Below, piece after piece: positions 26,635 through 51,097 of a stretch of 58,144 bases of DNA. Source of the DNA: a virus; the IMG/VR virus record IMGVR_UViG_3300022591_000010, positions 1 through 58,144 of that record; one strand, given 5' to 3'. The position numbers and the translations under genes were made by a program. Within the stretch, counting starts at the first letter, position 1. Every line of letters begins with the position of its first letter. The notes under the pieces are model-generated. The model made no database searches, was not told the DNA's origin, and saw nothing but the letters and a program-made list of their open reading frames with translations.

Positions 26635-27543
26635 TTACTTACCGTTGACAATCACGGAACTAGTAGCAGAAGAGCAAGGGTTGGTGTACACAGGCACGCC
26701 CTTATCAATTCCCTTAGAAATTACCTGTTGCCATACCTGCATACAGACAGATTGCAACTCAGAGGCAGTCATACCTGCTGCTGCAGAAGCGGCTGTCTTA
26801 AGACCCTGTGCTTCAATCAAACGACGTTGCGCTTCGATTGTTGCAGTCTTTGTTGCCTCTTGAGCAATACGGGTAGCCTGTTGTTGGCTTGCATACAGCG
26901 AGATTGTAGAAGCAGTAGCAGCGTCAGGTTCTACTGAGCGCATGCTTACAGTGTCTACGGTAATTCCGTAAGGAATCAACTGTTTGTTGAGTTGGATACG
27001 AATATCCTCTGCAACCTTGTCACGGTTAGAAATAGCGTCCAAGTTACCCGTTACTGAGTAAATCTGACCTACAGCCTGACGAAGGTTAGGAAGAACGATG
27101 TTATCGCTAATCGCATTCAAGTCTCCTGTGCGAGACTGGTAGTAAAGTTTTTCAGCGTCTTGCTTTTCTACACGCCAACGAGCCGCAATTTCTACGGACA
27201 TCTGTCCAGCATCTGCAGTACGAGCGATTACCTTTTCGTTGCCTGTTAGTTGAACTGTGAGAGGACGAATGGGGTATTCCTCAACGTTTGTCCAAGGCGC
27301 AACAAAGTGAATGCCGTTATCTAGCGGCTTACCAACGTGCCCAAAAGACACAGGTACGCCTACTTGCGTGGCCTGTACGACCGTGAAACTGCTAAAAAAC
27401 AATCCAATGATTCCAATTACCAATGCACCCAAAGAGACTCCAGTCCCAATGGCTTTAAGGTCGGTGTCGGTTGATTTGCGTGAGTAAGGAAGACCAATTA
27501 GGCCGCCCAAGATAAGTAGAACAAGAATAATTGCCATTACCAT
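26635..27543 (-). CDS. SPFH/Band 7 (stomatin/prohibitin-like) membrane protein
   Basis: 302 residues. Two N-terminal hydrophobic stretches (about 2-20 and 34-53) followed by a Band 7 domain: TQVGVPVSFG, GIHFVAPWTNVEEYPIR, and YGITVDTVSMRSVEP. The C-terminal coiled region has many Ala/Gln/Glu (EATKTATIEAQRRLIEAQG). SPFH proteins organise membrane microdomains and can stabilise membranes or regulate proteases. GGAG lies nine bases before ATG 27543. Phage Band 7 proteins are known but their role is unsettled. Confidence 0.88.
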   Translation of the reverse strand: MVMAIILVLLILGGLIGLPYSRKSTDTDLKAIGTGVSLGALVIGIIGLFFSSFTVVQATQVGVPVSFGHVGKPLDNGIHFVAPWTNVEEYPIRPLTVQLTGNEKVIARTADAGQMSVEIAARWRVEKQDAEKLYYQSRTGDLNAISDNIVLPNLRQAVGQIYSVTGNLDAISNRDKVAEDIRIQLNKQLIPYGITVDTVSMRSVEPDAATASTISLYASQQQATRIAQEATKTATIEAQRRLIEAQGLKTAASAAAGMTASELQSVCMQVWQQVISKGIDKGVPVYTNPCSSATSSVIVNGK

Positions 27544-40620: not shown

Positions 40621-42687
40621 TTATGGCTTCTTAGGTGGGGTAGTGCCAGTACCAGTAGTATTAGCTGCAGCGTTTTGAGCATTAAGGTCCTTAGCAATAG
40701 ATGCGGCTCCGCCTTGCTTAGAGAACAGTGTGCCGTTCCATAGGGCAGGGTATCTAGTAAAGCCGATAGTGACAGTGCTTAGAATAGGAACCATGTCTAG
40801 ATTAAACATAACATGGTTTACTGAGATGCTGGCTACCGAACCAAAGTATCTCATGTTATCGTTTAAATGCATCCAACATGGCATGGCTGTTGTGTACCCA
40901 AAGTCTGATGTAGGTTCGTTATAGCTACTTCCGAACAGTAATGAGTTCTTTAGGGGATCCCCATTTACTACTCTATATAGATATTCAATATCATATTCAG
41001 TTCCTCGGTTAAGAATTCCTTGAATAGCCTTGTCGCTTATAGCATGCCCATAAGCTTGGCTTAAAGAAACAGAGCCTTTATGGGCAGTACTTGTATACTC
41101 TCTTAGATACGCCATATCAGGAATGCGGTTTATATAGAGCTGTACAGTTACGTTCTGGTTACCAGCAAGTAAAACCGCAGGATCTTTTCTTCCAAGACTC
41201 CAGTCAATAGAGTTATCAGAAGCAGTCGTATAGTTAATTGTCTGAGGGTTGTACATAAATCTAAAGCCCCAAAGCTTAGATCCTGTATAGTTCTTAGAGT
41301 CAAAGGTAAGGTTATCTGGGTTTGTATTCAAAGCCTTAGCTCCTTGAGAGTCTTGAATGATTCTACCTAGATTCGCTGTCCTTTTATTTTCTCCGCTATA
41401 GCCTAAGCTCATAGGTTTAATTGCAGGTTGAGCCATAGCTTCGTAGTAAGCGCTCAAAGCATCCGGATCTTTTACGATAGCGTTGCTCTGCATCATTCTC
41501 TGACCATAAGAAATATCCCTAGCTCCAATATGTGGAGGTGGGTTGTAGCGTTCTTCTTCAGCAGGCTCGACAGTAGGTCCTATTGCATCTGCTGGAGGCG
41601 TAGCCCCCCCGGGTCCTGTAGCAGTAGTTGACCCTGTGTTGTTGCAGTTAGCAAGAATGGCCAGCCTCGCCTTAGTTAATACCGCTGATAGTTTTGGTCC
41701 TGCCATAGTTCCAATAGAAGACGCATTAGTAGGCATCTTTTCATTGGTAACTGTTTCGATAGCTTTAGGAGTAGACCCATTTATATCAGATATATAAACT
41801 GTGTAGTTATATGTTCCGTTAGTAATTCCGCTAGGCCCTGCATTAGCAGCAATTTTTATACCAACCCATTGAGGTTTTGTGGTCCCATTAAACAACCCAC
41901 AGTAATCATAGTACAGATACCCATACAATGGCCAACCACCATTTGATACAGCCACCTGAGTAGCTGTAATGGCGGAGGTCATGTTAGCTGGTACTGGCGG
42001 GGTAGTCCTCTTAGTGCTTACATTGAAGCCTGGGCAGATACCTAACAATGTAGGATGTTGAGGGTTAGCGTTACCATCATAGAACTGACCATTGTTTATA
42101 ATATTGGCGTTAAAGGTAACCGCATTGTACATATTCCAGCCGGTAGCTTTAGGACTTACAGTTACTTTAAATACATCTCCATTTGTATTTTGAGTTGTAA
42201 TGTTAGTAGTTCCGCCATTAGTAATATTATAGCCACCATAGTAAGTAGTTCCTGTGCCACCCTGAACTCCGCCAGGCCACATGTTTCCTGTGTTAGCGAC
42301 TGTAATCTTTACGTTATCTACTATGTTAGCATTTTTTCCGTTAACGTTTGTAGCACTTTTACTTTTAGACCCAAGCCAATAAAACTTAGCAGCACCGTTT
42401 CCATTTGTTCCATCATCGTACATGTAAACTCTGAAAGCGTATATAACTTGAAAGTTAGGTTCAATAACCATGCTGTTGTTGGCAGTAGTTGCTACTCCTA
42501 CTGTGGGGCTTGTAGGCTTTGTAGAGTTTCCCTTGTTTTCTTGATAGGTTAAAACAAGGTTTGGAAAGTTTGAATTGTTTTCAAGAACAGCAATGTTCTG
42601 AGCTTGAAGGCTTAAATCTTGGTTAGCGTAAGCAGCAGTCTGCCAATCTACATAGGTGGAGACGGTGTAGTGGTATGAGTATGCCAT
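40621..42687 (-). CDS. Tail/baseplate protein, 688 residues (tube-end/adaptor candidate)
   Basis: N-terminal ~360 residues are beta-rich and Asn/Thr/Gly-rich, resembling an adhesin or fibre-like domain. The C-terminal ~240 residues (LWGFRFMYNPQTINY, VTVQLYINRIPD, IEYLYRVVNG) look like a tail-tube-adaptor or LysM-carrying baseplate protein (XkdP/T4 gp48 type). It lies between tape measure and the LysM-like gene, which is where such adaptors occur. Overlaps the tape measure by one base. Assignment is moderate. Confidence 0.6.
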   Translation of the reverse strand: MAYSYHYTVSTYVDWQTAAYANQDLSLQAQNIAVLENNSNFPNLVLTYQENKGNSTKPTSPTVGVATTANNSMVIEPNFQVIYAFRVYMYDDGTNGNGAAKFYWLGSKSKSATNVNGKNANIVDNVKITVANTGNMWPGGVQGGTGTTYYGGYNITNGGTTNITTQNTNGDVFKVTVSPKATGWNMYNAVTFNANIINNGQFYDGNANPQHPTLLGICPGFNVSTKRTTPPVPANMTSAITATQVAVSNGGWPLYGYLYYDYCGLFNGTTKPQWVGIKIAANAGPSGITNGTYNYTVYISDINGSTPKAIETVTNEKMPTNASSIGTMAGPKLSAVLTKARLAILANCNNTGSTTATGPGGATPPADAIGPTVEPAEEERYNPPPHIGARDISYGQRMMQSNAIVKDPDALSAYYEAMAQPAIKPMSLGYSGENKRTANLGRIIQDSQGAKALNTNPDNLTFDSKNYTGSKLWGFRFMYNPQTINYTTASDNSIDWSLGRKDPAVLLAGNQNVTVQLYINRIPDMAYLREYTSTAHKGSVSLSQAYGHAISDKAIQGILNRGTEYDIEYLYRVVNGDPLKNSLLFGSSYNEPTSDFGYTTAMPCWMHLNDNMRYFGSVASISVNHVMFNLDMVPILSTVTIGFTRYPALWNGTLFSKQGGAASIAKDLNAQNAAANTTGTGTTPPKKP

Positions 42688-45365
42688 TATAAACTGTGTC
42701 CAAGTCTGTCTAGAGAATACGGATTGCTTGATAATTCTTTCTTTAGGCGAGCAGCTACAGTACTTACTAGTCGCTCTGTCTCTGCAACGCCGGCGTTTCT
42801 AATGTTAACTGTCATGTTCAAGTTGACAGTTGCTGTGCCGCTAGCGCCTCTAGAAGAAATGGTACCAGAGCTTACAGCAGACATTGCAGTTCCTGCTCCA
42901 ACAGAGCCTACGTTCATGCCTTGATGTGGACCACCATATCCAGGAATATTAGTTCCCCAAGGTGAGTGGTCTACAGCAGTTAGGACTGATGCGCTATCTG
43001 TTCCCTTAGAAAGGGCAGATAGAATGTTCTTATATCTACCATTATTAAGAGTTTGGATGGTAGCTGAGTAGCCGTCCTCCCAAGACTTATAGGCCTGTAC
43101 ACCCATGCCATGGCCCAAATCATTCATTGACGTTGAGCCATTATATTGCTGTGTAGTGTTTAGGGGATTATAGTGAGCAGAGTTCTTCCACTGACCGCCT
43201 TCCCAAGCTGCCCATGTAGTCAAGGCATTGATGTTCTCTTTTGTTACAGGCTTGCCAAGCTTTGCAAGAAGTGTCTTTGCCCAAGTTAGCTTGCTGCCTG
43301 TACCTAAAATAATTCCTCTTGTAGGCTTGACTGTTCCTGAAATCCAAGAGAGAGATTTATCTTTTCCGATATTCTTTGCTCCACCGTTTCCAAACGGATC
43401 TGTGATTCCTGATAGCGCTGAAGATGCGGAAGAAGAGTTAAGGATAGTTTGTAGGTCAGAACTAGATAGAGAGCTCCCACCAGACATATCAGCAGATGCA
43501 AAGTTTCTTTGGCTAACAGATCCGCTTCTTGAGCTGTTTGAAGATACTGTTGTGCTCTGAGGAGGAAGCGGTGGTTGAGGAGAGGCCCCGCTTAGGTATG
43601 GGGTAGGATCTACCTTCTTACCATTAACAAGAACTTCAAAGTGAAGGTGTGGGCCGGTAGAGCGTCCAGTAGAACCAGAGAAACCAATTACTTCTCCGGC
43701 CTTTACTTTTTGCCCTCTAGTAACCTTTACGCTTTGTAGGTGGGCATAACGAGTAGCAGTTCCATCTTCATGCTTTACTTCGACCCAGTTACCATAACCG
43801 TTAGCTTCGTTACCTATGATTGATACTACTCCAGCTTTAATAGCTGTTACAGGAGTTTTTAGCTGAGCACCAAAGTCTGTTCCTGGGTGTCCGTTATGTC
43901 CGTATGGTTGGGTTATAGGCGTGGACTTAGGTACAGGAAGAATAGAAGGGCCGGCAGCAACTGCCGGAGTTTTAGAGTTCTTTCCTACCGTGCCTACGCC
44001 ACCATGATCTTTAGGACCACCGGCAGCTACAGCAGCTACTTCTCCAGTAGCTAGTATGTCTTCTGCGGCCAACCCCACATCTTCTAAAAGACTTCCTCCC
44101 TTTAGAGGATTGTGGAACTGTCTTTTTACAAAATTAAATGCTTTGCCAAATATGTTGCCACCTTTAGAAGCTACCTTAGATTTAGCTAATTTAGCTCCTA
44201 GTGTAGACTCTCCAACATTAACTCCTAGCTTTCCTAAAATACTTGGTCCGTACTTAGAGATTGCCTTGTAGGCAAGGTAGTCTTGTCCTATGTTCATAGC
44301 AGTTCGGCCCACACTAGATATAGTGCTACCAACGTTGCCTGTATTAGGGAAGGTCTGTAGTGCGCCCTTGAATGTCATAAGTGCTTCTGTTACCGGACCA
44401 AGTGCGTTAGCAAGATCAGCAAAGCCACTAGTAAGTGCTGCATTAGTTCTTACGGCAGCATCGTATCCACCTACTAAACCTTGTTCAGTAGCTTGAAGAA
44501 CCTTAGCTTGAGCAGCGGAACCTCTAAAGTTTGCACGAATAGGGCTGCTCTTATCCACACCCATAAGATCCAACATCTTGTTTGGATCCTTGTTATTCAT
44601 TGCAGCACTAAATGTTTTAGCATTCGTGCTTGCTCGTGCAATAAGTCCAGAAGTAATAAGTTCAGTTAGATTTGGATCTCCTCCGGCAATTGCCTGGATA
44701 GATCGAGCACCCTTGCTATTAGGGTTGCGAAGAGTAGCCGCCTGTTCCTGTGTGATCTTTTGTCCACGGTACAAGAAGTTGTAGACCTGATTAATAATCT
44801 GGTCCATAGGCTTTAGGTTGCCTTGAGAGTCACGGATGTTTACGCCCATGCGTAGGAACATCATGCCGTTCATAGCGCCAGCACCTGCAGCAGCCTGCTG
44901 ATTTGTCATGCCAGAGAAAGCGCTCATTCCAGAAAGCTGTCCCATTATGGTCTTAGAGCTTAAGGAGTTTGCAGAATAGCCGCTATAGAATAAAGCTTGC
45001 TGCGCTTGTACTGCGCCCATAGCGCTTGTAGCGCCACCGCCAACAGCTTTGTTTGCTCCAACAATAGCTTGACGAGAAGACATTCCGCTTAGACCGGCAT
45101 AAGAATCAGCAGTAATACGTTGAGTTACAGCCGCCATAGTATCTGGCGACATACGGTACATTGCGCTGCCCACACCAAAAGCTGCTAGGCCTAAACCGAT
45201 GCCCATCTTTTCAGCTTTAGAGAAAGAACCTAAACCAAGTCGTCCTGATCCAGTTCTGTCTTTAGCCATGCCGTTAGTGGCATTAGTTGTTTCTCTAAGA
45301 GTGTCTGACCACTTCTTAGAGATAACATCTACATACTTTTCAACTTCTTTGAACAGGCGAAGCAT
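42687..45365 (-). CDS. Tail tape measure protein with M23 peptidase and glucosaminidase-like domains
   Basis: 892 residues, short for a tape measure. N-terminal half is helical and Ala/Met/Gly-rich (about 50-360). Residues ~480-590 form an M23 endopeptidase: HPGTD (His493, Asp497), RYAHLQ and PHLHFEV (His573, His575). Residues ~690-810 (WAAWEGGQWKNSAHYNPLN, Glu722) resemble a glucosaminidase or lysozyme-like domain. Both would degrade host peptidoglycan during DNA entry. A CTG at 45455 with GGCGGTG upstream would add 30 residues (SSSNLGIAS and on) and is a plausible true start. Confidence 0.9.
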   Translation of the reverse strand: MLRLFKEVEKYVDVISKKWSDTLRETTNATNGMAKDRTGSGRLGLGSFSKAEKMGIGLGLAAFGVGSAMYRMSPDTMAAVTQRITADSYAGLSGMSSRQAIVGANKAVGGGATSAMGAVQAQQALFYSGYSANSLSSKTIMGQLSGMSAFSGMTNQQAAAGAGAMNGMMFLRMGVNIRDSQGNLKPMDQIINQVYNFLYRGQKITQEQAATLRNPNSKGARSIQAIAGGDPNLTELITSGLIARASTNAKTFSAAMNNKDPNKMLDLMGVDKSSPIRANFRGSAAQAKVLQATEQGLVGGYDAAVRTNAALTSGFADLANALGPVTEALMTFKGALQTFPNTGNVGSTISSVGRTAMNIGQDYLAYKAISKYGPSILGKLGVNVGESTLGAKLAKSKVASKGGNIFGKAFNFVKRQFHNPLKGGSLLEDVGLAAEDILATGEVAAVAAGGPKDHGGVGTVGKNSKTPAVAAGPSILPVPKSTPITQPYGHNGHPGTDFGAQLKTPVTAIKAGVVSIIGNEANGYGNWVEVKHEDGTATRYAHLQSVKVTRGQKVKAGEVIGFSGSTGRSTGPHLHFEVLVNGKKVDPTPYLSGASPQPPLPPQSTTVSSNSSRSGSVSQRNFASADMSGGSSLSSSDLQTILNSSSASSALSGITDPFGNGGAKNIGKDKSLSWISGTVKPTRGIILGTGSKLTWAKTLLAKLGKPVTKENINALTTWAAWEGGQWKNSAHYNPLNTTQQYNGSTSMNDLGHGMGVQAYKSWEDGYSATIQTLNNGRYKNILSALSKGTDSASVLTAVDHSPWGTNIPGYGGPHQGMNVGSVGAGTAMSAVSSGTISSRGASGTATVNLNMTVNIRNAGVAETERLVSTVAARLKKELSSNPYSLDRLGHSL

Positions 45366-45460
45366 CTCTTTGGGGAAATCCTCAAAGAGTGCCTTCTCAT
45401 TAACTTTAGGTGCTTGTGGCCCATCAGAGGCTATACCTAGGTTACTACTACTCAGTTAAA

Positions 45461-45610
45461 TCACCGCCTTAAACGATTTTGCAATCTACCTAACCACATC
45501 AAACGTTCTCTAAAACTTAGAGCCCGTATCTCTTCCAGAGTCCATCCAGGGTAACCTTGACTCATATAGTCAAAGGTTTCCACTAAAAGGGTGTAGTCAA
45601 TCTCTCCCTT
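45461..45610 (-). CDS. Frameshift extension of the tail-assembly gene, 49 residues
   Basis: Short helical segment ending in TLEEIRALSFRERLMWLGRLQNRLRR, in the +1 frame relative to the upstream 270-residue gene. Sequences of the form TLEEIRxLxxRER.xW are typical of the second part of phage tail assembly chaperones. A ribosome on TTT-TAA (45614-45609) can slip +1 onto TTT and read AAG, fusing this to the upstream protein. Independent starts (GTG or ATG further in) lack clear ribosome sites. The product lies just before the tape measure, as usual for these pairs. Confidence 0.7.
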   Translation of the reverse strand, partial: KGEIDYTLLVETFDYMSQGYPGWTLEEIRALSFRERLMWLGRLQNRLRR

Positions 45611-46421
45611 AAAACAATTCCGCTAGTGTTAGCGGAAGCGGTACCTCCTGGCCGCAAGACTGACATTCCTTTGTAATAGCTCCGAGTTGTGGTCCTGGGT
45701 TACGGCTTGTGATTTCGTTCAAAAGTTCTCTGCGGTCCTTTAGACCTAGGCTTCTAACAACCTCTGGGTTTAATACCGGGGTTCCGTTAATAGCCTTTAC
45801 GCAGTTCTTTAGCAAAATTGTATCTAATTCTGCTGAGGTTTTGTCGTTAGACGCAACCATTTCTTTCTGGGTAGAGCCAGTAGGGAAGACTACCTCTACC
45901 TCTCCCACCTTACACTTTACGGTGAACTTACGATCACCATCTAAAGTCTTGATAGGAACATCTTTATCTAGATCAATATCAAACACCTGCTCAGTGCCAC
46001 AACTTGGGCAAGTTCCTGGACCTACTTTTACATCAGATCCAAAGGTAACCTTGCGAATTGCCAGCAACAGCATCTCTCGATCTCCTGCATACATTGCATC
46101 TAGAAGATCTTTAGAAGCCGGTTCGTCTCCAATTTTCACAGTAGCTCGTTCAAGAATAAGCAATAGGGACTTGCCAATATTGTTGAGCTTAGCTACCGCT
46201 TCTTCATCTGCCCCGTTCAGTTCTCTTACCTCAGCAGTATTGATGACTCCTGAAATAGGGTCTAGCAATCCTCCTGGTAGCTCAACTTCTGGACTAGGAG
46301 GCAACTGGATTTCTGGCGTAATTGCCGCAACAGTTGCCTCCTGTTCAGTCATAGCTTGTTGAGCTAGCTTGTTAAGAAGAGCTGGGTTTTGTTCCGCTGT
46401 TATAGTCGTTGTATTAGACAT
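45609..46421 (-). CDS. Tail assembly chaperone / gp26-gp51-like protein with zinc ribbon, +1 frameshift site at end
   Basis: 270 residues. CPSCG and, near the C-terminus, CQSCG form a zinc site (a CxxC pair each). LLLAIRKVTFGSDVKVGPGT and similar segments match the T4 gp26/gp51-type baseplate assembly proteins of myoviruses. N-terminal ~60 residues are Pro/Glu-rich and likely disordered. It ends TTG-TTT-TAA, and the +1 frame continues for 49 residues. Position directly upstream of tape measure supports a chaperone or hub-assembly role. Confidence 0.75.
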   Translation of the reverse strand: MSNTTTITAEQNPALLNKLAQQAMTEQEATVAAITPEIQLPPSPEVELPGGLLDPISGVINTAEVRELNGADEEAVAKLNNIGKSLLLILERATVKIGDEPASKDLLDAMYAGDREMLLLAIRKVTFGSDVKVGPGTCPSCGTEQVFDIDLDKDVPIKTLDGDRKFTVKCKVGEVEVVFPTGSTQKEMVASNDKTSAELDTILLKNCVKAINGTPVLNPEVVRSLGLKDRRELLNEITSRNPGPQLGAITKECQSCGQEVPLPLTLAELF

Positions 46422-46446: not shown

Positions 46447-47148
46447 TTAGCCGTTATTAATTGCTGGTGCTGATCCCGCTACAGTGTAGTTGGTTGCGTA
46501 TGTTACATCCCAACCTTCATGGACAATTGTCATCTCTTCAACCATGATGCTGTTTGAGCCGGCATCTAGATTGCTGTATGACAAGTTTGTAATCCATGCA
46601 CGATATACGCGGAAGCGTAAAGACGTGTGTTGCTCTTGTGGGGTAGGGGCAGTAACACCTGCAGTGGCGCCTCCACCTAGGTTGATTGTTTGTCCAGTAG
46701 TAGCCTGTGGGTTTGGATGGCTGAGTACTTGGATATCCAAATTACAGCGGAATCCTCCACCGACTCCCGCAGTAGCTCCTGTAGAGGCAGGAGATCCTGA
46801 AGTAAGAACTGAGAACAAACGCTTCATCCAAAGAGCATTGTCTCCCTGACCCAACATAACTCCCTTAGAGAGAGTAATTGGTGTGAAGGCAGACTGTCCA
46901 GGAATCTGGTGTGTATTGGTGTTGTATCCGCCTTCACGGTAAGCAATTGCTTCAGTAGCAACACTTAATCCGGAAACAGATACGAACCCCATTGAACCAA
47001 AGTTTGATCCGTAAGATGCCGTATCTCCGGCACTTTCGGTAGGGGTAAAGGTTACTAAGAACTTAAAATTACGTACTGGATCAGTAAGTAAATTACTAAG
47101 TGAGTTAGTAACTGGTGATGGTGATGAGCCATTATTTTGCTGTGCCAT
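46447..47148 (-). CDS. Tail tube protein (T4 gp19-like)
   Basis: 233 residues. DPVRNFKFLVTFTP, SVSGLSVATEAIAYREGGYNTNTHQIPGQ in two parts, and MEEMTIVHEGWDV-type ending match T4 gp19-family tubes. The N-terminal ~25 residues are Asn/Ser/Pro-rich. It assembles into the inner tube surrounded by the sheath encoded directly upstream. ATG 47148 has AAGGAGATAGATA upstream. Confidence 0.9.
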   Translation of the reverse strand: MAQQNNGSSPSPVTNSLSNLLTDPVRNFKFLVTFTPTESAGDTASYGSNFGSMGFVSVSGLSVATEAIAYREGGYNTNTHQIPGQSAFTPITLSKGVMLGQGDNALWMKRLFSVLTSGSPASTGATAGVGGGFRCNLDIQVLSHPNPQATTGQTINLGGGATAGVTAPTPQEQHTSLRFRVYRAWITNLSYSNLDAGSNSIMVEEMTIVHEGWDVTYATNYTVAGSAPAINNG

Positions 47149-47162
47149 TTTTATCTATCTCC

Positions 47163-49232
47163 TTATGCCGAAGCATTTCCGGTAAGTTGTCCAAGCTTAA
47201 TGACAACGAACTCTGCTGGATATTGTAGTGCCACACCAACTTCAATATTTACGATACCGGCTTGGATATCGCTAAAGCTTGTAGTAGATGAGTCAACCTT
47301 TACGTAGTAGGCCTGAGAAGGAGAGCTTCCACGAAGTCCACCTGAGTTCCAGTAATTAAACAAGAACGAGCCTAGGATTGTTTGGAGCTTGCTCCATAGA
47401 CGGGTATCGTTGTTCTCGAACAAAGCAAAAGAGCTTAGGTTCTGCATCTGCTTTTCAATGTAGATAAGAGAACGGCGGATATTGATATAGCGATTGGTTG
47501 GCGTGTTGTCCATAGTACGAGCACCCATGATCACAATTCCAGAACCTGGAACCTGACGGATTGGGTTGATTGGGTCAACAGAGGTGTTGATTGCATCTAG
47601 CTCAGCGTTTGTGAACAAGTGTTCAGTAGACACTGCAAGAGCCATCTTATTTAGAAGACCTGCTGGAGACTTTGCTGGGCTACGAAGAGCATCTGTAGAG
47701 AGGTACTGACCAACTACACCTGCGCCAGGAGCCTGAAGACGAAGAGCACCAATAGCCTTGTTTGGATCTGGGATGTTGTACCAAGGCCAGTAAGCAGCCG
47801 CACTTCCACCAGAGGTAGATGCAGCGAAGTTAGAGGCTGTGGTGGATACGCTAGACTGAGCAGCTGTTGCGTTAGCCAATCCTGATGGTGTATCGATAAC
47901 TGCAAACGTATCTGTACGACCTGCAGCATAAGTTACTGCGGCGCCATGAAGCTGGCTGCATAGTGAGCTCGTAGATGCATATGGAGCATCAGGAGCGTAT
48001 ACAACGATTGAGTTATTAACACTATCAAATGTAGTCCAACCAGTGGTGTAGTCTGAGAGTGTTGGTGCTGTACCGTCTGTTCCGCCAGATAGCGAAGTTG
48101 GGTTAGCGTTAAGTGTGTATGGGTTCTTAGTGCTATCGATGCTTCCTACAGTAACAACTGCAGAGTAAGCAGGGATGATAGAACCGATGTAGTTAGCATC
48201 AGTTGAGCTCATGCTTAGGTCAGAATACCGCTCTACAACGCTTGTTGAAGTTACGCCACTAGATGTAGTTGTTGCATAAATAGTGAGGTTAAAGCGGCTA
48301 GAGACACCAGCAGGAGTTACCTGTGCTGAGTAGCTATTTGCCCAAGAACCTGGGTTAAGAGCTGTCAACGTAAACGAGTTGTTTGAAGGCGTGGTTACTA
48401 CTCCAGAAGCTGTACCAGTCTGAGCTGACAAAGCAACTGCAGGCAAGGTCTGGCTTGCTGTAGGGGTCACAGTAATAGCGAACGCTGAGGTTGTCAAACC
48501 AGTAGAGTTGATTGTACCTGTGATGTTGTAACCAGATGTTACTGAGAAGGTAGCTCCAGTAAATACTGCAGTACCTGCGATAGTAGATGGTGAGGCTACA
48601 GCAGCTGTGAAGCTTGTATTAGCTGTAACTGCGCTTACATAGTAAGTACCGTTAAAGCTACCTGTAGTAGCACCAGTTACGCCTGCCACAGTAACAATAG
48701 AACCTACCACAATACCTGTGGTGTTAGTGGTTGCCCATGTTACAGTAGTAGATGCACCCGTACCGTTAATAGTAGCTGAGGTAACTGTAGGTGTTGCTGT
48801 AGCACCAAGGCCGGTGATTGTAACTGTCTGACCAGCTGTGTATGTATTAGCAGCTGTATAGGTGATTGTATTTGATACTGGGAGAGAAGCAGCAGTTACA
48901 GTAGCTGTAACAGTAGTGCTGGTACCAGAACCGTCATTGATAGTTACAGCAGCTTTTAGTGCAGAAGAGCTTACAACGCGCTTTACATAGAGTGCAGTTC
49001 CATGGTTAGCAAAAAAGTTGTACGCAGCCCAAGAGGTTGGGTAGGCGTCGTTAAGTCCACCAAATGTCTTTGTAAACTGACCCCATGTAGATACTAGTAC
49101 TGGTGCGTCTGTTGGTCCTTGAGGAAGGGACCCGCAGAATGCTCCTACAGCACTGGCGGTATCTAACACGGTAACAGCTTGTGGCAAAGGCATTTCTTGG
49201 ATATATACGCCGGGGCGGCTATATGTTGCCAT
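47163..49232 (-). CDS. Tail sheath protein with large Thr/Val-rich insertion
   Basis: 689 residues. Starts SRPGVYIQEMPLP, and the C-terminal half has IMGARTMDNTPTNRYINIRRSLIYIEKQ and FVVIKLGQ, the sheath core signature. An insertion of about 175 residues (105-280), Thr/Val/Ala/Gly-rich with repeats such as VGSIVTVAGV and AGQTVTITGL, is probably exposed on the outside. Similar to the insert in baseplate J. ATG 49232 has AAGGAGTAAC upstream. Confidence 0.93.
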   Translation of the reverse strand: MATYSRPGVYIQEMPLPQAVTVLDTASAVGAFCGSLPQGPTDAPVLVSTWGQFTKTFGGLNDAYPTSWAAYNFFANHGTALYVKRVVSSSALKAAVTINDGSGTSTTVTATVTAASLPVSNTITYTAANTYTAGQTVTITGLGATATPTVTSATINGTGASTTVTWATTNTTGIVVGSIVTVAGVTGATTGSFNGTYYVSAVTANTSFTAAVASPSTIAGTAVFTGATFSVTSGYNITGTINSTGLTTSAFAITVTPTASQTLPAVALSAQTGTASGVVTTPSNNSFTLTALNPGSWANSYSAQVTPAGVSSRFNLTIYATTTSSGVTSTSVVERYSDLSMSSTDANYIGSIIPAYSAVVTVGSIDSTKNPYTLNANPTSLSGGTDGTAPTLSDYTTGWTTFDSVNNSIVVYAPDAPYASTSSLCSQLHGAAVTYAAGRTDTFAVIDTPSGLANATAAQSSVSTTASNFAASTSGGSAAAYWPWYNIPDPNKAIGALRLQAPGAGVVGQYLSTDALRSPAKSPAGLLNKMALAVSTEHLFTNAELDAINTSVDPINPIRQVPGSGIVIMGARTMDNTPTNRYINIRRSLIYIEKQMQNLSSFALFENNDTRLWSKLQTILGSFLFNYWNSGGLRGSSPSQAYYVKVDSSTTSFSDIQAGIVNIEVGVALQYPAEFVVIKLGQLTGNASA

Positions 49233-50435: not shown

Positions 50436-50633
50436 TTACTTCTTTTTCTCGTCCTTCTTGATTTTCTTTACGATGGCTTTATCCTCGGCACGGTCTTCCG
50501 CCATATCCTTAGGCTTCTTGTGCTTCTTGTCCATCTTCTTGAACTTTGCCTTTTCAGCAGGAGTCAGGTTCTTGGTGTCCTTCTTATCCTGAGGCTTATC
50601 GTTCTTCTCGTTATAAGGCTTTGACTTGGCCAT
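50436..50633 (-). CDS. 65-residue Lys-rich protein
   Basis: Lys is about a third of all residues; there are also many Asp/Glu, ending IKKDEKKK. No structured domain visible. Terminator directly downstream. Belongs to a run of four very small basic genes; similar in kind to the 54-residue protein at 8565. Confidence 0.7.
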   Translation of the reverse strand: MAKSKPYNEKNDKPQDKKDTKNLTPAEKAKFKKMDKKHKKPKDMAEDRAEDKAIVKKIKKDEKKK

Positions 50634-50708
50634 TTACTTGCCTTTCTTTTTCTTGCAGGCGCCCTTGCAGTTAGGTTTAGAGCATCCGCATCCGCATGAC
50701 TTGCACAT
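50634..50708 (-). CDS. 24-residue Cys-rich, Lys-tailed protein
   Basis: Short gene: 24 residues with six Cys in CKSCGCGCSKPNCKGACK (residues 2-19), then KKKKGK. ATG 50708 has GGAGAATAAT upstream (a good ribosome site) and the stop is followed immediately by the next start (TAAATG). Metallothionein-like metal binding is suggested by composition only; a zinc- or thiol-based role in the virion or in lysis is equally possible. Confidence 0.7.
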   Translation of the reverse strand: MCKSCGCGCSKPNCKGACKKKKGK

Positions 50709-50709
50709 A

Positions 50710-50940
50710 TTATTCTCCGCTTCCCTTTTTACTATGGTATTTCTTGGTGGCTGTTACACCGGCACCGATGGTGACGGCTCCGGCAAGCTTGGTCAGATTC
50801 ATGGTTTTACCTCCACCTGGGTGGTGGACTTTTACGTCTTTGCCGTGCTTGTCTACAATGTGTGTCTTGCCGTCTGCCTTAAACTTGGCAGCGGCTTTCT
50901 TCTTTTCTACCGCCTTTGGGCGTGCTTTACTTTTTGGCAC
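50710..50940 (-). CDS. 76-residue basic protein
   Basis: Starts KSKARPKAVEKKKAAAKFKADG, then Gly/Lys/His-rich with a hydrophobic patch (LAGAVTIGAGVTA). GTG 50940 overlaps the end of the upstream gene. No known domain. Confidence 0.65.
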   Translation of the reverse strand: MPKSKARPKAVEKKKAAAKFKADGKTHIVDKHGKDVKVHHPGGGKTMNLTKLAGAVTIGAGVTATKKYHSKKGSGE

Positions 50941-51097
50941 CCTTTACCTTCTTCAAATTAGGATTCTTAGCCTTCGCCTTAGCTGAAGCCTTGCGAGAGG
51001 ATGATGCTAGTATAGCACCGGCTGCCTCCTTAGAGACACCTTCTTTTGCTGCAATTTTATTCTGTGCGGCCTTAAAGCCTGGGTGTTCTTTTGCCAT
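50927..51097 (-). CDS. 56-residue basic protein
   Basis: Short gene: KEHPGFKAAQNKIAAKEGVSK with a helix (AAGAILASSSRKASAKAKAK) and Lys-rich end. AGGAATAG upstream of ATG 51097. Its GVSKEAAGAILA pattern resembles common small phage proteins of unknown role. Overlaps the downstream gene by 14 bases. Confidence 0.68.
   Translation of the reverse strand: MAKEHPGFKAAQNKIAAKEGVSKEAAGAILASSSRKASAKAKAKNPNLKKVKGAKK

Follow-up and report, generated by a model that had tools for sequence, protein, structure and literature searches.

The locus described here raises the question of how a phage tail gene and the short, out-of-register open frame behind it come to be translated. It lies in a viral DNA stretch of 58,144 nucleotides (IMG/VR record IMGVR_UViG_3300022591_000010; hereafter the window), where a first-pass annotation had noted a 270-residue gene ending TTG-TTT-TAA and had proposed that tRNA-Phe undergoes a programmed +1 shift at TTT, adding 49 residues to a tail chaperone. 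Both the gene end, on the minus strand, and the 49-codon +1 frame (45610..45464) proved to be as described, and the proposed shift has strong comparative support, drawn from 78 relatives, 47 loci and a slip codon that is TTT in 35/35 representatives. At the level of sequence, comparison establishes the gene, the frame, the slip site, the absence of a start codon, selection on the extension and an upstream hairpin. We regard it as very probable that in this group of contractile-tailed phages a single gene of the PF12322 family would give a lambda G/GT-type pair of chaperones by +1 shifting at TTT.

The Locus and Its Shift Site

The features of the tail region are as follows.

47163-49232, minus strand: tail sheath, first in the direction of the genes
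46447-47148, minus strand: gp19-like tail tube, directly before the PF12322 gene
45609..46421, minus strand: PF12322/phrog_150 (T4 gp26-like) 0-frame gene, 270 aa, from Pfam and PHROG matches
45609..45617, minus strand: shift site TTG_TTT_TAA; across the family TTT is invariant and the next base is T (stop) or C
45461..45610, minus strand: +1-frame extension, open in +1 in all relatives
45461-45470, minus strand: SD-like AAGGCGGTGA, which includes the stop of the extension
45453-45455, minus strand: predicted CTG start codon for tape measure; in homologues this position holds ATG, GTG or TTG
42687-~45455, minus strand: tape measure gene with M23 peptidase domain (ORF 42687-45365 plus an upstream part)

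The 0-frame protein matches Pfam PF12322 (T4_baseplate; E=1e-10, 41.9 bits against a gathering cut-off of 24.5) and PHROG 150 (E=2e-9). In gene direction the order is sheath, tube, PF12322 gene, extension and tape measure. The PF12322 gene lies between those for the tube and the tape measure, as a gene of the lambda G/GT type does, and the overlapping frame that lacks a start of its own and is fused through a conserved frameshift also agrees with that type. The 270-aa product would be the short form of a tail assembly chaperone, a function that is predicted. Residues ~225-243 of this protein carry a motif, VVRSLGLKDRRELL, that resembles EIRALSFRERLMWL in the extension, perhaps as a repeated helical unit.

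The gene closes with GAA TTG TTT TAA, so that Leu occupies the E site, Phe (45614-45612) the P site and the stop the A site, and base 45611 would be skipped. A TAG ~4 codons before the 0-frame stop blocks the +1 frame further upstream, which confines the switch to GCG GAA TTG TTT; within these codons cognate +1 re-pairing is possible only at TTT_T. After TTT the extension runs for 49 codons (45610..45464) to a TGA at 45463..45461, and its +1-frame translation, KGEIDYTLLVETFDYMSQGYPGWTLEEIRALSFRERLMWLGRLQNRLRR, matched no family in Pfam or PHROGs. No tRNA genes were found in the window, and thus no phage tRNA explains the shift.

Downstream, AAGGCGGTGATTTAA followed by CTG (45470-45453, minus strand) is the apparent start of the tape measure gene; CTG stands at this place in the window and in three close relatives (L003, L006, L009). 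ORF callers would place the start at an ATG at 45365, 30 codons late. Elsewhere in the window, three successive small lysine-rich ORFs stand amid the structural genes (50436-51097, minus strand), and an SPFH/Band_7 domain protein is encoded among the replication genes (26635-27543, minus strand).

Conservation of the Junction

A first search returned 80 viral relatives with 44-100% identity in the 0-frame protein. Two of the 80 are cut short, and in all of the 78 that reach the stop a +1 ORF of 42-54 codons follows the junction. From these relatives and the Streptomyces phages BRock, LuckySocke, pSt2308 and GiJojo we drew 35 representatives (<90% identity); in the four distinct Streptomyces phages, too, the extension is in the +1 frame. 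Across the representatives this frame holds no stops, against 4.7 and 4.1 per 44 codons in the other two frames, and is open far beyond chance. A separate search of viral contigs with the extension only, built from seven closer sequences, found 47 distinct loci, partly on the same contigs as the first search, and at 47/47 a PF12322 frame lies upstream and ends in TTT followed by CGN, CAR or a stop.

The slip codon is TTT in all 35 representatives, while elsewhere in these genes 26% of Phe codons are TTC and 74% TTT (P = 2e-5, a value that ignores phylogeny). It is preceded by Leu in 34/35 and by Ile once. The base that follows is C or, always as part of a stop, T, and the A-site codon is CGN in 21, CAR in five and a stop in nine. 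The 0-frame stop falls 0 to 3 codons past TTT, and the fused proteins are nonetheless colinear at LF|extension, without displacement. In the BRock group (13 distinct sequences), TTT is followed by CGN or CAG, two further codons and the stop, and the extension lies in +1. TTT serves as slip codon in 13/13, though these phages prefer TTC elsewhere (72 TTC, 50 TTT). For LuckySocke and Alone3 the junction predicted after a +1 slip at TTT CAG reads ...NVGILF|RNSDYELAYQEYEQ... The long form is unannotated in BRock (L082), LuckySocke (L083), pSt2308 (L084) and GiJojo (L085); for BRock, LuckySocke and GiJojo the extension is entered as a hypothetical gene of its own, and in pSt2308 it is unannotated.

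The first-pass annotation had asked for conservation of TTTTAA. The slip site TTT_Y is indeed kept, but the literal TTTTAA occurs only in some members of the clade that contains the window and in L033, and the conserved element is, from these alignments, TTT_Y rather than TTTTAA.

Selection on the Extension and History of the A Site

The ratio pN/pS is 0.48 over the extension, 0.44 over its first ~10 codons and 0.34 over the 0-frame gene. Comparison among relatives thus places the extension under purifying selection as a coding sequence.

The history of the A site was followed on a midpoint-rooted protein tree with 56 members. A-site classes changed six times on this tree, while TTT stayed unchanged throughout; the stop form needs at least two origins and CAR three. 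TTT TAA, the form of the window, occurs in only 10/56, and members with the stop form use UAA, UAG and UGA. CGN or CAG is found in the members that fall outside the main clade, the Streptomyces phages among them; the simplest reading is therefore that the RF2-like TTT-TAA of the window derives from a TTT-CGN site. This displaces the emphasis that had been put on an RF2-like slow stop: most relatives have TTT-CGN or TTT-CAR, a sense-codon site gave rise to the stop on at least two occasions, and a hairpin takes the place of a Shine-Dalgarno (SD) element. UUU_CGN is present in those 21 of the 35 representatives with a CGN A site, whereas the window has UUU_UAA; its site would work like those of the UUU_CGN class without belonging to it, and a shift is predicted.

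TTT_Y is avoided elsewhere in the genes of the window, where a pyrimidine follows TTT in 13.6% of cases (40/295) vs. 31.6% for the remaining NNT codons (P = 1e-12); TTT-CGN has a single occurrence against 8.3 expected. This avoidance fits a shift-prone tetranucleotide, and it may partly reflect a general codon-context bias.

The Upstream Hairpin

Directly 5′ of the E-site codon, and ending 3 nt before the P-site TTT, the window has the following element.

45618..45637, minus strand: hairpin UUCCGCUA-ACAC-UAGCGGAA, 8 bp with a 4-nt loop, from synonymous nulls, linked codon choice and pair counts

Hairpins in the family have 5-8 bp and leave 3-7 nt between their 3′ end and the slip codon; the BRock-like stems leave ~7 nt before TTT. 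Over the 30 nt before the slip codon the 35 representatives have a mean folding energy of -9.0 kcal/mol, against -2.3 +/- 0.37 for random synonymous codons, and none of 500 within-column synonymous shuffles among the sequences reached the observed mean. The Streptomyces group, with a stem CCCAC...GUGGG, has a mean of -7.6 vs. -4.5 +/- 0.59. The stem occurs in two registers, CCG(Pro)...GCG(Ala) and CCA...GCA. Pro CCG is paired with Ala GCG in 37/38 sequences and the Ala codon is GCG in 2/16 otherwise (P = 5e-10, uncorrected for shared ancestry). In the main register 80% of cells are paired across 56 sequences, compared with 21-49% when the register is slid, and its covariation score was matched by 1/500 shuffles; the second register gave weaker pair figures. 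Compensatory changes inside one register are few, and the support for the hairpin therefore comes mainly from codon choice and register switching. In L073 and L075 the hairpin is no better than in random synonymous sequence, and in L196 it is weak.

An engineered hairpin stimulated +1 shifting in yeast when it stood ahead of a +1 site (PMC3639245), so that a mechanism for stimulation by an upstream hairpin is available. The comparative data suggest a natural upstream-hairpin stimulator of +1 shifting, and we think it likely that the hairpin has this role.

The Wider Family and T4

Beyond these relatives, +1 extensions behind TTT were found in Bacillus SP-15, Listeria LIS04, Streptococcus GXN1 (TTC TTT CGT), Microcystis Mel-JY01 and several marine phages; SP-15 and LR756508, used as queries, returned few or only distant relatives. 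In Agrobacterium Atu_ph07 (L092) and Pseudomonas PA5oct (L093) the extension follows T_TTT_TTC in the -1 frame, which looks like a -1 frameshift missing from the annotation. In two further members (L215, L216) the extension is a separate gene with an ATG start.

T4 has been stated to be an exception to the conserved chaperone frameshift (PMC5009743). Its gp26 and gp51 (L173, NC_000866, 3803-5229) are both PF12322 proteins: gp26 is without an extension, and gp51 consists of PF12322 plus ~48 residues, an in-frame tail like the frameshift extension. When a gp51 profile was compared with the fused products, residues 61-244 were aligned, including the final motif, with a probability of 95% (P = 2e-8). 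The extension alone gave a weak, suggestive match to gp51 tails (P 0.007-0.05). The predicted fold of a T4-type gp51 had a pLDDT of 80, with C-terminal blocks at ~54-66. On the full-length alignment, the simplest reading is that gp26 may be the short form in T4 and gp51 the long one. For phage 0305phi8-36, an earlier study had argued that G/GT is recapitulated with no frameshift (PMC2147016).

Alternative Explanations

The extension could be a separate small protein made by reinitiation past the 0-frame stop, for example from the in-frame GTG at 45583, which lies 25 nt beyond the stop of the window and has an SD-like AAGGGAGAG right after that stop. GenBank lists the extensions of BRock and LuckySocke as separate small genes, and the distant L215 and L216 do have a downstream ATG gene. 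However, neither the start codon nor the SD is conserved: the first 25 extension codons hold no ATG, GTG or TTG in 13/35 representatives, and none of these codons is conserved in position across the family, so that the check for an independent start proposed in the first-pass annotation came out in favor of a shift. The codons from the slip site to any such start are under purifying selection (pN/pS 0.44), and a start at 45583 would lose nine selected codons. These observations make reinitiation very improbable in our judgment, and it would also give the invariant TTT_Y no role. Entry into the same frame by a -2 shift, as known for Mu chaperones (PMC5009743), is extremely improbable: in the window (TTG TTT) it would set tRNA-Phe on UGU with a mismatch at the middle position, and the conserved Y after TTT matters for +1 re-pairing alone.

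It is also quite improbable that the hairpin and its T-rich tail form a transcription terminator or attenuator instead of a frameshift stimulator. A scan did flag 45637-45618 plus TTGTTTTAAG as terminator-like, but it gave nine hits in 2.2 kb and is unspecific, the tail in relatives is TTGTTTCG with no conserved U run, and the BRock-like stem stops ~7 nt short of TTT. A terminator would leave the invariant TTT and the extension unexplained. Finally, the four-T run at the junction of the window might point to a sequencing error, or to a decayed gene that mimics a frameshift, an explanation whose probability is practically nil. The same frames recur in dozens of independent contigs and isolates, many of them without a four-T run (TTT-CGN), and the extension is selected; the relatives exclude error and decay. 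A +1 shift at TTT, with the hairpin as its probable stimulator, is accordingly the reading we carry forward.

Discussion

In the proposed mechanism, most ribosomes would halt at TAA and release the 270-aa short form. In the remainder, tRNA-Phe (GAA anticodon) would re-pair one base further on, from UUU to UUU in the window and from UUU to UUC in relatives, and the shifted ribosomes would continue in +1 to a 319-aa long form with the 49-residue C-terminal extension. The hairpin would re-form behind the ribosome at the mRNA exit, where it probably pulls on the mRNA and favors +1 movement. Judging from lambda, the short form would cover the tape measure protein, and tube subunits would be brought in through the extension. 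Shifting itself and its efficiency, like the chaperone function and the part of the hairpin as a stimulator, are what we infer from the comparisons above.

Tail chaperone frameshifts are usually -1 and sometimes -2 or +1 (PMC5009743). The PF12322 locus resembles lambda G/GT in its place between the tube and tape measure genes and in its short/long design with an extension added by frameshift, but differs in protein family, in a shift of +1 instead of the usual -1, and in the combination of a UUU_Y slip with an upstream hairpin. That a +1 shift would be unusual here, as first supposed, is a fair statement, but precedents have been proposed: a +1 chaperone shift in the haloarchaeal myovirus HSTV-2 (PMC5009743) and a TTT-CGC +1 shift in HF1-group haloviruses (PMC7230728). 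We confirmed the arrangement in HF2 (AAG TTT CGC AGA TAG, with the extension in +1). Like the PF12322 phages, the HF1 group and HSTV-2 are predicted to shift +1 at TTT-CGC, close to where a chaperone gene ends; unlike them, they infect archaea, have no upstream hairpin described and are represented by few genomes. The HF2 chaperone did not match PF12322, and the TTT-CGC common to both is therefore probably convergent, as judged from the proteins.

The UUU_CGN class takes its definition from influenza PA-X and further viruses of eukaryotes, amalgaviruses included (PMC3498833). Its P-site slip from UUU_C to UUC with a CGN A site is the commonest form in the PF12322 family. In contrast to PA-X, the phage sites would act on bacterial ribosomes, have CAR or a stop in the A site as well, carry Leu instead of Ser in the E site and have an upstream hairpin, whereas PA-X is without an evident stimulator. 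With RF2 (prfB) the window shares the A-site stop and a P-site tRNA that would slip +1 onto U. An RF2-type SD ~3 nt upstream of the slip codon is absent; the window has TAGCGGAATTG there, the 3′ arm of the hairpin. In the PF12322 family, unlike RF2, the stop form is derived and UAA, UAG and UGA are all used, so that RF2-specific feedback does not apply. SPP1 and Listeria PSA likewise have +1 slips in structural genes, just before the stop in tail genes (PMC6316719, PMC5009743), but there the slip codon is for proline, the product is a structural protein (major tail or capsid) and no chaperone, and the SPP1 chaperone pair is predicted to use -1. T4 gp26 and gp51 share PF12322, and gp51 aligns with the long form through the extension, but the two are separate genes without a frameshift, and their annotations are those of a baseplate hub protein (gp26) and a hub assembly protein (gp51).

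A search of the literature, which was short on subscription journals, found no description of a frameshift in the PF12322 family or of a +1 site in prokaryotes with a natural hairpin upstream. As far as that literature goes, the bacterial-phage version of the +1 chaperone shift and the upstream hairpin are new here. A broader generalization is somewhat better than even in our estimation: bacterial phages would possess a class of +1 sites in which re-folding of a hairpin behind the E site drives tRNA-Phe to slip on UUU_Y and the A site accepts CGN, CAR or stop codons interchangeably, and PF12322 would be one ancient long/short system that uses +1 shifting, -1 shifting or, in T4, duplication into gp26 (short) and gp51 (long).

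Signals for +1 frameshifting in bacteria are few and poorly understood. The family offers dozens of divergent natural sites, isolated Streptomyces phages included, in which slip context, A-site codon and hairpin vary semi-independently, and the role of each is therefore directly testable. A motif of influenza and plant viruses, UUU_CGN, recurs in bacterial phages, and the long form is one that annotators overlook. The reading of gp26 and gp51 as short and long forms would explain why T4 seems to lack the widespread frameshifted chaperone.
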